Shown piece by piece: positions 2,479 to 12,143 of a stretch of DNA of 12,574 nt. The DNA is from Candidatus Iainarchaeum sp. (GTDB lineage: Archaea > Iainarchaeota > Iainarchaeia > Iainarchaeales > UBA10191): the NCBI GenBank assembly GCA_013331925.1, contig DUFJ01000070.1, positions 15,625 to 28,198 of the forward strand, written 5' to 3'. Position 1 is the stretch's first letter; each line of letters begins with the position of its first letter. Under the pieces are notes generated by a model, which saw only the letters and a list, made by a program, of their open reading frames with translations, was not told where the DNA came from and did no database searches. A program made the position numbers and the translations under genes.

Positions 2479-3240
2479 GTGGTTTTTGAAATCAAAGTGC
2501 TCGAAAGGAAAGCAAACACGCTGAACATTCTAATAAAAGGCGCGTCTACGGAATTAATGAACGCCTTGAGAAGGGCGATACTTACAGAAGTTCCAACACT
2601 CGCAATAGAAGAAGTGACCTTTTTCGACAATAATTCAGTGGTTTTTGACGAAATGCTCGCGCACAGGCTTGCGCTATTGCCTATAAAAACAAGCCTTAAA
2701 ACACTCAAAAAAGGAGAAAGCGTAAAACTCTGGATTGAGAAAGAAGGGCCAGGAACAGCTTACAGCAAGGACATAAAAAGCTCAGACCCGGATATTGAAA
2801 TAATAGGAAAAAAAATACCGCTTACAAAGCTTGCAAAAGGCCAAAAAATAAAGGCTGAAATGCTTGCTGTGCTGAATTCAGGAAAAGAGCACGCAAAATG
2901 GCAGCCTGCAATAGTAGGCTACAGGCAAGTGAACAAAATCACAATAAACGGCGAATGCGACTTGTGCGAAGCCTGCATCAAAGAATGCCCGAAAAACATC
3001 CTGGAAGCAAAAGGCAAGAAAATCGTGCTTACGGACGCTCTGGAATGCGATGCGTGCAACGCCTGCAGGAACAACTGCGAGAAAGGCTTAATCAGCATAG
3101 TGCCTGAAGAAGGCAGCTTTGTGCTGTTCCTTGAAACCCACGGGCAGCTGGAAAACGAGGAAATACTTTACAGCGCGATAGAAGCGCTTTCCAAGAAAAC
3201 AACAGAGTTCAAAAAGGAAATAAGCAGCTTAAAGGAGTGA
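2479..3240 (+). CDS. rpoD: DNA-directed RNA polymerase subunit D with two complete 4Fe-4S motifs
   Basis: Subunit D (homologue of bacterial alpha and eukaryotic Rpb3) dimerises with subunit L and starts assembly of archaeal RNA polymerase. The start is GTG at 2479, with binding site GGTGA at 2467-2471. Residues 1-70 carry the dimerisation domain (MNALRRAILTEVPTLAIEEVTFFDNNSVVFDEMLAHRLALLPI). An inserted ferredoxin-like domain follows, with cysteines at 160, 163, 166, 170 (CX2CX2CX3CP) and at 190, 193, 196, 200 (CX2CX2CX3C). The dimerisation domain then closes to residue 253. Archaeal D proteins vary from no cluster to two. Here both sets of four cysteines are intact, so two [4Fe-4S] clusters are predicted. 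The sequence ends with a T-run at 3241-3245. Confidence 0.96.
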   Translation: MVFEIKVLERKANTLNILIKGASTELMNALRRAILTEVPTLAIEEVTFFDNNSVVFDEMLAHRLALLPIKTSLKTLKKGESVKLWIEKEGPGTAYSKDIKSSDPDIEIIGKKIPLTKLAKGQKIKAEMLAVLNSGKEHAKWQPAIVGYRQVNKITINGECDLCEACIKECPKNILEAKGKKIVLTDALECDACNACRNNCEKGLISIVPEEGSFVLFLETHGQLENEEILYSAIEALSKKTTEFKKEISSLKE

Positions 3241-9412: not shown

Positions 9413-10126
9413 TTGAAAATTAGGAAAGCCAGCAAAAATCAAGGCAACTTGTTTACGAGGGATAAAAAACTTCGCGGATTAGACTACCGAACAAGGCTTT
9501 CCAATAGAACACTAGGGTTTGCGGCAAGGCGTGGAAAAGACATTAGTAGTCATGAAACCGCAGATTTTGGAAGAACCCTAAACAAGTATTATAGAATTTT
9601 TAAAGCTTTAAATCAGCATTTGGGAAGCGTCAAGGATAAGACAATACTCCATTTTGGAAGCTCGACAGGCGTGCTGACAAAGCATTTGCAAAACCGTAGA
9701 GCAATTGCAATAGGCCTGGACACAAGCCCTGAAGCATTGGATATTGCAAAATTGGCAAAAAACAAGCGCTTAGTCAAAGCAACTGCCAAGCTTCGTGGAA
9801 GCGCACACAAATACCTGCCTTTCAGGGACAACTCAATAGACTGCATTGTTTCAGACCATTTTCTCTACTCGGATTATGCAGAGCTTGAAGGACGGTCTGC
9901 ATCTGGCGATAATTTCCCTTCCAGGGTTTTAAACAGCAATCTAGCAATGGCTGAGGTTTTCAGAGTTTTAAAACCCAATGGAATCATAGTACTGCATGAT
10001 TTTGTAGTATGGCCTGGTTTTGAATTTGGCGTCGGCCAAGAATCAAGCTTTAAACACTTTACAGACAAGCTGGGTTTTGAAATTCTGGAAGCAGGTGATG
10101 ATATTATAGTGCTCAGAAAAAAATAG
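9413..10126 (+). CDS. Class I SAM-dependent methyltransferase with altered motif I
   Basis: The 237-residue product has a basic N-terminal region (1-70) followed by a Rossmann methyltransferase fold. Motif I is ILHFGSSTGVLT (78-89). The usual hhD-hG-x-G-x-G has His 80 in place of the acidic residue and Ser 84 in place of the middle glycine. Asp 103 in AIGLDTSPEALDIA fits the ribose-binding acid. PFRDNSIDCIVSDHFLYS (136-153) and EVFRVLKPNGIIVLHDF (181-197) are motifs IV/post-IV of small-molecule and RNA methyltransferases. The substrate is unknown. The start is TTG at 9413, with GAGG (9402-9405) at the gltX stop as its binding site. It shares the gltX transcript with a 9-base gap. Its spelling seems more T-rich than the surrounding genes. 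Confidence 0.75.
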   Translation: MKIRKASKNQGNLFTRDKKLRGLDYRTRLSNRTLGFAARRGKDISSHETADFGRTLNKYYRIFKALNQHLGSVKDKTILHFGSSTGVLTKHLQNRRAIAIGLDTSPEALDIAKLAKNKRLVKATAKLRGSAHKYLPFRDNSIDCIVSDHFLYSDYAELEGRSASGDNFPSRVLNSNLAMAEVFRVLKPNGIIVLHDFVVWPGFEFGVGQESSFKHFTDKLGFEILEAGDDIIVLRKK

Positions 10127-10130
10127 TTTA

Positions 10131-10140
10131 ATTTTTAAAC
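10131..10140 (+). promoter_or_regulatory. Probable TATA box of the L7Ae operon
   Basis: ATTTTTAAAC, a few bases after the methyltransferase stop, is a good archaeal TATA element. It predicts a start near 10160-10165 and hence a leader of about 70 bases, unusually long among the leaders seen in this window. Confidence 0.5.
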
Positions 10141-10174
10141 CCTCTCTATCAAGAGTTCGGTATAGTTTTAGCAA

Positions 10175-10224
10175 CGGTTTCTCAAACCGATGAGAAAAAC
10201 CGCATTGTTCGGTTTTTTGGAGGT
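10175..10224 (+). promoter_or_regulatory. L7Ae mRNA leader: candidate kink-turn sequestering the Shine-Dalgarno, with a competing hairpin
   Basis: A kink-turn can be drawn across the binding site. The bulged strand is ACC-GAT-GA-G (10186-10194): C-stem, three-base loop ending in U, then GA. The hairpin AAAAACCG (10195-10202) with CGGTTTTT follows around a seven-base loop. The second strand is G-GA-GGT (10219-10224), giving tandem G-A pairs and an ACC/GGT C-stem. GGAGGT is the Shine-Dalgarno of L7Ae, so folding or protein binding would hide it. Upstream CGGTTT (10175-10180) can instead pair with AAACCG (10184-10189), which breaks the C-stem, or with the later AAACCG through CTCA/TGAG. The stem carries one mismatch or bulge depending on register, and the C-stem is short. 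Confidence 0.5.
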
Positions 10225-10231
10225 CTTTGTT

Positions 10232-10594
10232 ATGGCAGAAATGGGTTTTGAAGTTCCTAAAGAATTGCAGGAAAAACAACTGCAGCTTTTGGAAAAACTG
10301 CAAAAGAACGGAAAAGTAAAGGTCGGAGTTAACGAAACAACCAAAATGGTCGAGAGAGGGACAGCAAAACTGGTGATTGTGGCAAAAGACGTGCAGCCTT
10401 TGGAATTAGTAATGCACCTGCCATTGCTCTGCAAGGAAAAAAACATTCCATGCACTTTCGTTGCTGCCAAAAAAGACCTTGGGGAAAAGGCAGGATTGAA
10501 TGTCGGCACTTCAGCAGTCGCAATAACTGACGAAGGCGATTTGAAAAAAGAGCTGGAAGAAATACTGAAAAAGCTCAAAGACCTGGAAAAGTAA
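10232..10594 (+). CDS. rpl7ae: Ribosomal protein L7Ae (kink-turn binding protein)
   Basis: L7Ae binds kink-turns in 23S rRNA, box C/D and H/ACA guide RNAs, and archaeal RNase P. The 120 residues contain the family core in order: NGKVKVGVNETTKMVERGTAKLVIVAKDVQPLELVMHLPLLCKEKNIPCTFV, DLGEKAGLNVGTSAVAI and a C-terminal Lys/Glu helix. The VNETTK and RGTAKLVVIA-type segments carry the RNA-binding residues. I start it at ATG 10232 because GGAGGT (10219-10224) stands seven bases before it. An upstream in-frame ATG (10190) lies within the structured leader and would add 14 unrelated residues. It heads an operon with eS28, eL24 and ndk, an order common in euryarchaea. Confidence 0.96.
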   Translation: MAEMGFEVPKELQEKQLQLLEKLQKNGKVKVGVNETTKMVERGTAKLVIVAKDVQPLELVMHLPLLCKEKNIPCTFVAAKKDLGEKAGLNVGTSAVAITDEGDLKKELEEILKKLKDLEK

Positions 10595-10606: not shown

Positions 10607-10819
10607 ATGGCAGAGCAGGGAACTCCGGCAGAGATTGTTGAGATAATAAAGCGCACTGGAACTAACGGAGAGATAGTGCAGGTGCTTTGCAGAATCCTTG
10701 AAGGAGAGGAGAAAGGCAGGATTAAGAGAAGGAACGTGAAAGGAAACTGCAAGACCGGAGATGTTATAATACTTTTAAGCACTGAAAGGGAAGCCAAAGA
10801 CATTAGGGCCAAAAGGTGA
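10607..10819 (+). CDS. rps28e: Ribosomal protein eS28
   Basis: This 70-residue small-subunit protein has an OB-fold. TPAEIVEIIKRTGTNGEIVQVLCRILEGEEKGRIKRRNVKGNCKTGDVIILLSTEREAK is typical in sequence and length, including the RGxxRRNVKGPVR-like basic strand and the E-RE-A ending. The binding site AAGTGA (10595-10600) overlaps the end of the L7Ae gene. Its TGA stop is inside the binding site of eL24. Confidence 0.96.
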   Translation: MAEQGTPAEIVEIIKRTGTNGEIVQVLCRILEGEEKGRIKRRNVKGNCKTGDVIILLSTEREAKDIRAKR

Positions 10820-10824
10820 AAGCC

Positions 10825-11034
10825 GTGAAATGCTCTTTCTGCGGAAATGAAATTGCAAGAGGCACTGGAAAAATTTACGCCACAAAAGAAGGCAACGTCA
10901 GCTATTTTTGCAGCGGAAAATGCGAGAAAAACTCGCTCAAGCTCAAGCGCTCCAAGGAAAGGACAAAATGGACTCTCTCCTACCATAAAGAGAAAGGCAT
11001 AAGGCTTGGCTCAAGGCAGAAGAAAGAAAAGTGA
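10825..11034 (+). CDS. rpl24e: Ribosomal protein eL24
   Basis: This 69-residue zinc-ribbon protein lies at the subunit interface. CSFCGNEIARGTGKIYATKEGNVSYFCSGKCEKN has the four zinc cysteines (3, 6, 29 and 33 counting from this start), followed by the family's LKRSKERTKWTLSY. I start at GTG 10825, five bases after AAGGTGA (10813-10819). An in-frame GTG at 10816 is part of that binding site, is the alternative start, and would add three residues. The C-terminal end GIRLGSRQKKEK is basic and short. ndk follows after six bases. Confidence 0.92.
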   Translation: MKCSFCGNEIARGTGKIYATKEGNVSYFCSGKCEKNSLKLKRSKERTKWTLSYHKEKGIRLGSRQKKEK

Positions 11035-11040
11035 AGCTTA

Positions 11041-11535
11041 ATGCTTGAAAAAACATTGGTTGTCGTAAAGCCTGATGGGGTACAGCGCTCGCTGGCTGGA
11101 AAAATAATCCAGCGCTTTGAGGACGCAGGCTTGAAGATTGTAGGAATGAAAATGGTTTGGATAGGCAAGGAATTTGCAAAAAAGCATTACACTGAAGACA
11201 TTGAAAAAAGGCACGGAGAGAAAGTAAGGGGAATGCTTGTGGGCTATATTACAAGAGGCCCTGTTGTTGCCATTGTTCTGGAAGGCATTGAGGCAGTTGA
11301 GGCAGTCAGGAAAATAACCGGAAGCACCTATCCTTCAGCAGCAGCGCCTGGAACAATCAGGGGAGACTTTGCGCACATGACAAAAGAGCACGCAATAACA
11401 AATGACCAGGACGTGCAAAACTTGTTGCACGCTTCAGGAAGCAAGGAAGAGGCAAAGGCAGAAATCGCGCTATGGTTTTCTGAGAAAGAACTGCACTCTT
11501 ACAAGACAGTTCACGAAGCCCATGTTTTCCATTAG
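11041..11535 (+). CDS. ndk: Nucleoside diphosphate kinase
   Basis: This enzyme transfers a phosphate from one NTP to any NDP through a phospho-histidine and balances the nucleotide pools. The 164 residues show TLVVVKPDGVQRSLAGKII with Lys 10 at the start, RHGEKVRGMLVGYITRGPVVAIVLEG, and GSTYPSAAAPGTIRGDFA. The active-site loop is NLLHASGSKEEAKAEI with His 130. All residues expected for activity appear present. The length is slightly above the 150 typical of the family because of a C-terminal KTVHEAHVFH tail. It is the last gene of the L7Ae operon, as is common in euryarchaea, where infB often comes next; here it does not. Confidence 0.97.
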   Translation: MLEKTLVVVKPDGVQRSLAGKIIQRFEDAGLKIVGMKMVWIGKEFAKKHYTEDIEKRHGEKVRGMLVGYITRGPVVAIVLEGIEAVEAVRKITGSTYPSAAAPGTIRGDFAHMTKEHAITNDQDVQNLLHASGSKEEAKAEIALWFSEKELHSYKTVHEAHVFH

Positions 11536-11636: not shown

Positions 11637-12143
11637 ATGCAAGAGTTCAAACAGAGAATCTCCTGGGACACATACTTCATGGAGATAGCCAGCACTACCT
11701 CAAAACGCGCTTCCTGCTTTAAAAAACAGGCAGGCGCTGTAATAGTAAAAAACAAGCAAATTCTCTCAACAGGCTATAACGGCGCCCCAAAAGGCATAAC
11801 TGATTGTTTTGAGAAAGGCTACTGCATGAGGCAAGAGCGCGATATTCCATCAGGCGAAAGGCTGGAGTTTTGCATGGCGACTCACGCTGAACAGAACGCA
11901 ATAGTGCAGGCCGCAGCTAGCGGAACCTCGGTGCAGGATGCAACGCTCTACACCACAGTCCAGCCCTGCGTGCTTTGCGCTAAAATAATAATAAATGCAG
12001 GCATCAAGGAAGTGGTTTTCTCAATCCCGCAAAAAGACTTCAACAAGAAACAGCCGCTGCCTGAATCAGACATTCTCGCAGCACAGCTTTTGGAAGAGGC
12101 AGGCATTAAAGTCAGGCAGTTAAGGCCTGAAAGGAAAAAATAA
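11637..12143 (+). CDS. Deoxycytidylate (dCMP) deaminase family protein
   Basis: The 168-residue product fits dCMP deaminase, which makes dUMP for thymidylate synthesis. It opens with RISWDTYFMEIASTTSKRASCFKKQAGAVIVKNKQILSTGYNGAPKG. The zinc catalytic motif is THAEQNAIV (His 83, Glu 85) with PCVLCAK (Cys 111 and 114). The conserved SGERLEFC and the Cys 57/63/79 region resemble the structural-zinc part of bacterial and phage enzymes. Related ComE-type proteins share the fold, but the high similarity to the dCMP deaminase pattern favours that activity. It has its own, probably leaderless, promoter and is 13 bases from the CYTH gene, probably in one transcript. Confidence 0.9.
   Translation: MQEFKQRISWDTYFMEIASTTSKRASCFKKQAGAVIVKNKQILSTGYNGAPKGITDCFEKGYCMRQERDIPSGERLEFCMATHAEQNAIVQAAASGTSVQDATLYTTVQPCVLCAKIIINAGIKEVVFSIPQKDFNKKQPLPESDILAAQLLEEAGIKVRQLRPERKK

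Follow-up and report, generated by a model that had tools for sequence, protein, structure and literature searches.

The window, that is, the whole 12,574-nucleotide stretch of archaeal DNA analysed here, carries on its forward strand a gene for ribosomal protein L7Ae (eL8), followed by rps28e, the next gene of a likely operon, and by rpl24e and ndk. The l7ae leader, defined as the stretch between the end of a methyltransferase-like open reading frame at 10126 and the AUG at 10232, contains the elements of a kink-turn (k-turn) at the Shine–Dalgarno (SD) sequence. The features are, in order:

Ending at 10126: upstream methyltransferase-like open reading frame, with all NCBIfam matches below cut-off
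10132..10139, forward strand: TATA-like element TTTTTAAA, from sequence
10175..10180, forward strand: competing segment CGGUUU, 5' arm of an alternative hairpin, from sequence and energies; not conserved
10181-10183: CUC loop of the alternative hairpin, from sequence
10184..10189, forward strand: AAACCG, 3' arm of the alternative hairpin, overlapping the C-stem strand and L1
10186..10188, forward strand: ACC, bulged strand of the C-stem, pairing with GGU 10222-10224; its position is parsed likewise in relatives
10189..10191, forward strand: three-nucleotide bulge GAU (L1-L3); GAU in 43 of 73 parsed leaders
10192..10193, forward strand: G1b and A2b of the tandem G:A pairs, demanded by the descriptor that 73 of 87 leaders satisfy
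10194..10202, forward strand: NC stem, 5' strand GAAAAACCG; nine pairs, p=0.002 against shuffles
10203..10209, forward strand: terminal loop CAUUGUU, from sequence
10210..10218, forward strand: NC stem, 3' strand CGGUUUUUU, from sequence
10219..10224, forward strand: SD GGAGGU, also the non-bulged k-turn strand; GGAGGT here in 66 of 73 parsed leaders
10232..10594, forward strand: l7ae (ribosomal protein L7Ae / eL8), 120 amino acids; TIGR03677, 148.8 bits, cut-off 134.6
10607..10819, forward strand: rps28e; NF003080, 96.4 bits, cut-off 95
10816..11034, forward strand: rpl24e; NF034186, 75.6 bits, cut-off 73
11041..11535, forward strand: ndk, nucleoside-diphosphate kinase; NF001908, 159.3 bits, cut-off 155

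Read as RNA, positions 10186-10224 consist of ACC, GAU, GA, GAAAAACCG, CAUUGUU, CGGUUUUUU, G, GA and GGU, an arrangement that provides a three-base-pair C-stem, a C:G pair beside the GAU bulge, tandem G:A pairs, and a nine-pair NC stem with a seven-nucleotide loop. A three-nucleotide bulge and tandem G:A pairs thus lie between two helices, and the k-turn of the window is genuine at the sequence level. The hexamer GGAGGU doubles as SD and as second, non-bulged k-turn strand, with G10219 as G3n or as a bulged G, the next two letters as G2n and A1n, and GGU 10222-10224 as the C-stem strand. Every element named in an earlier sequence-only reading of this locus is present at its coordinates, and that reading was right that the stem register needs one bulge or mismatch: two registers involving G10219 are possible, one in which G10219 is bulged and G10194 pairs with U10218, and another in which G10194 and G10219 face each other as 3b:3n and the U6 run has one bulged U. 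The nine NC pairs are contiguous, and their p value was obtained by shuffling the inner segment. In the 797-kb genome to which the window belongs, the literal pattern CCGATGA-N3..30-GGAGGT has a single match, at the l7ae leader, and the reversed control also gives one match. Rfam at gathering threshold yields zero matches in the window, a permissive Rfam search of 10100-10300 yields seven matches that all fall below their gathering scores, and ARAGORN finds zero tRNAs in the window.

The protein encoded downstream retains the contact residues for such a motif. It aligns over 117 residues to L7Ae of Archaeoglobus fulgidus (PDB 4bw0, E=2.3e-37), as well as to 1rlg, and the A. fulgidus residues N33, E34, K37 and R41, reported as k-turn contacts in the complex described by Huang et al. 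(2019; PMC6298567), are kept as N34, E35, K38 and R42.

Autoregulation of L7Ae through leader k-turns, which the sequence-only reading had mentioned for archaea, is indeed on record (PMC5539422; PMC6298567), and the precedent is reported to rest on binding, reporter, crystal and in-line probing data. In Sulfolobus acidocaldarius, L7Ae binds a k-turn in its own leader according to RIP-Seq, gel shift and reporter experiments, SD masking has been proposed, and candidate strands have been described for other archaea (Daume et al., 2017; PMC5539422); the survey in that paper covers 121 species and names one DPANN archaeon, Nanoarchaeum equitans, as an exception that lacks an SD, and the words DPANN and Diapherotrites are absent from its main text. 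The A. fulgidus leader is reported to fold only with L7Ae, whereupon its ribosome-binding site becomes protected (Huang et al., 2019; PMC6298567). The overlap of the k-turn with the SD, which had been taken for the novelty of the present sequence, is therefore not new, given that SD occlusion has been published for A. fulgidus and proposed for S. acidocaldarius, and the window belongs to a known mechanism. With the published leaders, as described in these two sources, it shares the gene, the GAU bulge, the tandem G:A pairs, the short C-stem, the placement of the k-turn at the SD and, as proposed for the window, the occlusion of the SD upon protein binding. It differs from them in that the entire SD hexamer GGAGGU forms the non-bulged strand and in that -1b:-1n is C:G, an identity found in none of the six leaders given by Huang et al. 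(PMC6298567), among which 3b = C or 3n = G occurs only in M. maripaludis. A more distant parallel is the k-turn in the yeast L30e (RPL30) leader, through which an L7Ae-family protein likewise represses its own transcript, although that system is eukaryotic and splicing is also affected (PMC6298567).

Conservation was assessed in 87 oriented l7ae leaders, representing 86 genomes. An L7Ae match was present in 91 genomes, of which G028, G080, G082, G085 and G086 were left out, as they held only fragments or distant family members, and G052 contributed two leaders. A strict descriptor, requiring a C-stem of at least 3 bp, C:G at -1, a bulge ending in AU or GU, GA, and GAGG at the SD, is matched by 61 of the 86 leaders whose start was located (one had no located start), compared with 302 of 16,800 sequences made by dinucleotide shuffling of that upstream DNA (1.8%; 84 leaders with 200 shuffles each, two leaders without GAGG giving none). 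When a four-nucleotide bulge and a 2-bp C-stem are also accepted, 73 of 87 leaders parse (64/73 in the order, 70/81 in the phylum and 3/6 outside the phylum) and 14 do not. The strand facing the bulge is exactly GGAGGT in 66 of the 73. Since the descriptor demands C at -1b and GAGG at the SD, k-turns of other sequence can be missed; it also admits 13 leaders whose inner segment is only 3-8 nt long, short forms that may be k-loops or chance, so that either a long stem is not required or k-loops are involved. A first, looser parser had assigned a k-turn to 77 of 87 leaders and a double one to 22, and because it took any bulge sequence and missed four-nucleotide bulges, the counts of the relaxed descriptor (73 and, for double forms, 28) are used instead. 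A further 37 loci (L035-L071), among which 18 parse, were left uncounted, several having long inner segments or doubtful start codons. Altogether, the placement of the SD on the second strand of an l7ae leader k-turn is strongly conserved in relatives.

Two side observations concern this leader set. In L101, L103, L104 and L128, the GA strands are merely 3-4 nt apart (e.g., GCC GAU GA AAG GA GGU), which would suit k-loops. In addition, record JAFCBY010000026.1 (L032), labelled Candidatus Falkowbacteria, a bacterium, carries an archaeal l7ae and is probably mislabelled or derived from a mixed bin.

The NC stem was evaluated in 28 of the 41 single-type leaders, namely those with an inner segment of at least 9 nt. 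Together they contain 84 contiguous closing pairs, where 1000 shuffles average 43 and never exceed 63; individually, p<=0.05 is reached in 8 of 28, with the window at p=0.002, and the contiguous stems range from none to nine pairs. In the sister genome G001 the leader reads GCC-AAU-GA-AAAAAGCC...GGCUUUAA-GA-GGU, and when the two leaders are aligned from the end of the loop, two compensatory changes become visible (CCG/CGG to GCC/GGC), by which two of three G-C pairs are flipped on both sides with pairing retained. The contiguous-pair count for G001 is nevertheless zero, because two A face A next to the G:A pairs.

This strong conservation makes self-repression the likely function, and we consider it highly probable that the leader is an L7Ae-responsive translational off switch. 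Under this proposal, L7Ae in excess of its other RNA sites would bind the leader k-turn, consisting of the C-stem 10186-10188/10222-10224, the bulge GAU, the G:A pairs 10192-10193/10220-10221 and the NC stem 10194-10202/10210-10218; as the SD itself serves as the non-bulged strand, binding would take the SD away from the ribosome and lower l7ae translation, possibly together with that of rps28e, rpl24e and ndk downstream. When L7Ae is not bound, a C-stem of 3 bp would be expected to come apart, the SD would be more accessible, and the NC hairpin could persist, as it ends before the SD. Such a switch would extend L7Ae feedback, with strong comparative evidence, to Diapherotrites-type archaea, and its design would be economical, the ribosome-binding site and the protein-binding strand being the same six letters.

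The proposal presupposes that the k-turn is transcribed in full. Archaeal transcription starts about 25 nt after a TATA-like element, and TTTTTAAA would accordingly place the start at approximately 10158-10165. The start is thus predicted upstream of the k-turn, rather than downstream of 10186, a position that the sequence-only reading had named as fatal to its own proposal. Across 73 parsed leaders, the distance from the start of the best TATA-like octamer to the last C-stem base has a median of 51 nt (range 18-95; 45-60 in 37 of 73), and from these positions full transcription of the k-turn is probable. The ATG at 10190, formed within the bulge, raises the question of whether the segment is coding instead, with l7ae beginning there, gaining 14 residues and having no leader. 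The frame is indeed open from 10190 to 10594; however, a perfect SD precedes 10232 and none precedes 10190, the best PDB matches begin at residue 4-5 of the 120-residue form, and among the 69 leaders that have a bulge ATG, it is in frame and open in just 6, including the window. The leader is therefore not an N-terminal extension in general, and we rejected the upstream ATG as the true l7ae start, a reading to which we attach almost no credence.

Whether the free leader can adopt the k-turn depends on sequence rules that set the window apart from known cases. Within the parsed leaders, the SD sequence sets G at -1n and usually G at 3n, with the qualification that the descriptor itself demands C:G at -1; the outer 3b:3n, read from the two terminal letters of the inner segment, is C:G in 32, A:G in 28, G:G in 4, U:G in 4 and other in 5 of the 73. 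According to the rules given in PMC8191799, a Watson-Crick C:G should fold poorly in ions and a non-Watson-Crick combination with 3n = G should fold well. For the window, -1b:-1n = C:G together with 3b:3n = G:G in one register predicts ion-induced folding (PMC6298567; PMC8191799), unlike the published l7ae leaders, which are reported or predicted to be unable to fold without protein. Part of the leader set, perhaps including the window, may hence fold without protein, and one may ask whether switching can still depend on protein when the k-turn is itself predicted to form in metal ions.

A k-turn able to fold in ions would make a competing structure useful, and this bears on the two-state switch proposed in the sequence-only reading, in which pairing of CGGUUU 10175-10180 with AAACCG 10184-10189 would occupy the C-stem strand and leave the leader on until L7Ae shifts it to the k-turn. 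The segment exists and its pairing is physically possible in the window: the competitor with the NC hairpin is calculated at -12.2 kcal/mol, compared with -10.8 kcal/mol for the k-turn, whose G:A pairs are uncredited; without protein, the C-stem bases are 82-87% paired, with the k-turn register contributing almost nothing; and the competitor score of the window reaches p=0.056 against shuffles. What fails is conservation. When the best helix covering the two C's, sought within 28 nt upstream, was compared with shuffles in 66 parsed leaders, 43 had no qualifying helix, p<=0.1 was attained in four, including the window, and p<=0.05 in one alone, G091 from another phylum; the competitor is also absent from the sister genome G001. 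As the NC stem of the window holds the same CGGUUU and AAACCG words, the stem sequence by itself can account for the complementarity. These comparisons do not support a conserved two-state switch, which we accordingly do not accept, and we regard a two-state switch as unlikely.

On folding energies alone the k-turn does not stand out (z -0.94 and -1.36). The folding program favours other folds, at -13.3 kcal/mol with the competitor, and without protein the C-stem has a probability of 1-2%. The lowest-energy fold of 10160-10240, start codon included, pairs part of the SD with upstream sequence at -17.4 kcal/mol, and without protein the SD bases are 42-53% paired in the leader alone and 63-78% paired when the start codon is included, so that the SD of the free leader may not be freely open. 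One could accordingly imagine a plain hairpin or SD-sequestering fold that works without L7Ae, for instance as a thermosensor, the resemblance to a k-turn being incidental. Yet the energy of this fold is no better than that of shuffles (z=-0.94; 41/200 as good), and what relatives conserve is the k-turn core and not the stem, whose contiguous pairs vary from none upwards; such a fold is, in our judgement, very improbable, and the L7Ae-responsive off switch remains the preferred reading.

The part of this analysis that deserves attention is the occurrence of tandem k-turn leaders in related families. Under the relaxed descriptor, 28 of 87 l7ae leaders show two k-turns of the same polarity in tandem, with the SD as the outer second strand; they fall in families f2 (4), f4 (1), f7 (13), f11 (1), f12 (1) and f15 (8), and include L018, L019, L021, L023, L006 and L008. 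The inner turn consists of a second bulge-plus-GA, NAU-GA in 28/28, opposed by GA (13) or AA (15), and the spacer, a C:G pair in 17/28, measures 1 nt (21 leaders) or 2 nt (7 leaders) on the bulged side, with a single G opposite; in L018, for example, the leader reads GCC-GAU-GA-A-AAU-GA-AGCCGC-UUUUU-GCGGCU-GA-G-GA-GGUG. The second non-bulged position of the inner turn is A in 15 of 28, a change that would abolish the published G2n contact, so that not every inner turn is canonical.

Several measures place the tandem arrangement beyond chance. The form arises in 0.11% of letter-shuffled inner segments (44 leaders with 500 shuffles each), and in the tandem alignment all five inner-stem pairs have changed on both sides, although the pair adjoining the inner G:A is unpaired in 13/27 rows. 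Counted across the entire structure, cells altered on both sides number 45, where shuffles give 14, and the covariation score of 0.529 compares with 0.144 for shuffles; 0/500 shuffles reach either value. The number of pairs with a double change (6 against 5.5 shuffled, 280/500 as high) and that of further pair types (19 against 16.4, 71/500 as high) are not clearly above shuffles. Run over 87 phylum genomes, a covariance model, R1, gave 29 strong matches, each in a different genome. The 28 tandem leaders are matched by construction, as R1 was built from them; the remaining one, in G065 (E 4.4e-7, imperfect C-stem), is an l7ae leader, with an l7ae start in the DNA after the match. Together with it, the other matches at E<=0.01 number 11, four lying at single-class l7ae leaders (G058, G063, G054 and G045) and six elsewhere. 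In two further archaeal phyla, searched with stricter filters at E<=0.001, 1/156 and 4/196 genomes match, the latter set having been drawn from a larger group, and inspection by eye found no l7ae start in the 200 nt after these five matches or after the weak own-phylum match in G086. The window itself is not tandem: it is classed as single, and its R1 match (7.1 bits, E=2.6) is the second of four chance-level matches in the window.

A further arrangement is seen in f9 leaders L106, L110, L117 and L118, in which two k-turns of opposite polarity share an NC stem of about 4 positions, a form found in 0.14% of shuffles. It is quite possible, though we lean slightly against it, that the l7ae leader became a two-site sensor in several lineages of this archaeal order, with two L7Ae per leader and steeper, cooperative feedback, the window representing the simple form. 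If true, the two-site sensor would be a natural mRNA double k-turn switch. With single, tandem and opposed k-turns on one gene, these leaders offer a means of asking whether the steepness of ribosomal-protein feedback is set by one L7Ae molecule or by two.

Among the matches listed by literature searches on tandem, double or two k-turns, on L7Ae leaders since 2018 and on Diapherotrites, judged mostly by title or the start of the abstract, no two-k-turn mRNA leader appeared; the topics returned for two k-turns included RNase P, box C/D and synthetic objects, and those for Diapherotrites with kink-turn concerned RNase P proteins. RNase P RNA is known to be bound by L7Ae, and the title of a 2017 paper by Lai et al. 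refers to a double K-turn module in the euryarchaeal form of this RNA. To judge from that title, the module has two k-turns side by side and resembles the tandem leaders; it differs in not being an mRNA leader, and the window has one k-turn. The two-k-turn RNA of Huang et al. (PMC6298567) is described as a crystal construct. A synthetic duplex in which two k-turns are joined via a common NC helix (PMC5058347) has, as described there, the topology of the back-to-back f9 leaders; that duplex is man-made, whereas the f9 leaders are natural mRNA leaders with their short shared stem.

Genes other than l7ae may possess similar leaders. Over 87 phylum genomes, the literal pattern given above has 78 matches against 24 for the reversed control, of which 38 lie at a known l7ae leader, one has letters identical to one, and 39 lie elsewhere; as these 39 exceed the 24 control matches, the pattern is not unique to l7ae, and k-turn leaders of other genes are possible.

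Two other genes of the window may be mentioned. A cytidine/deoxycytidylate deaminase-like gene lies behind ndk at 11637-12143, its top NCBIfam match being ComEB at 100 bits, below the cut-off of 219. The open reading frame at 2479-3240, which we take to be RNA polymerase subunit D-like, contains two cysteine clusters (CDLCEACIKECP and CDACNACRNNC) that resemble an iron-sulfur insertion.
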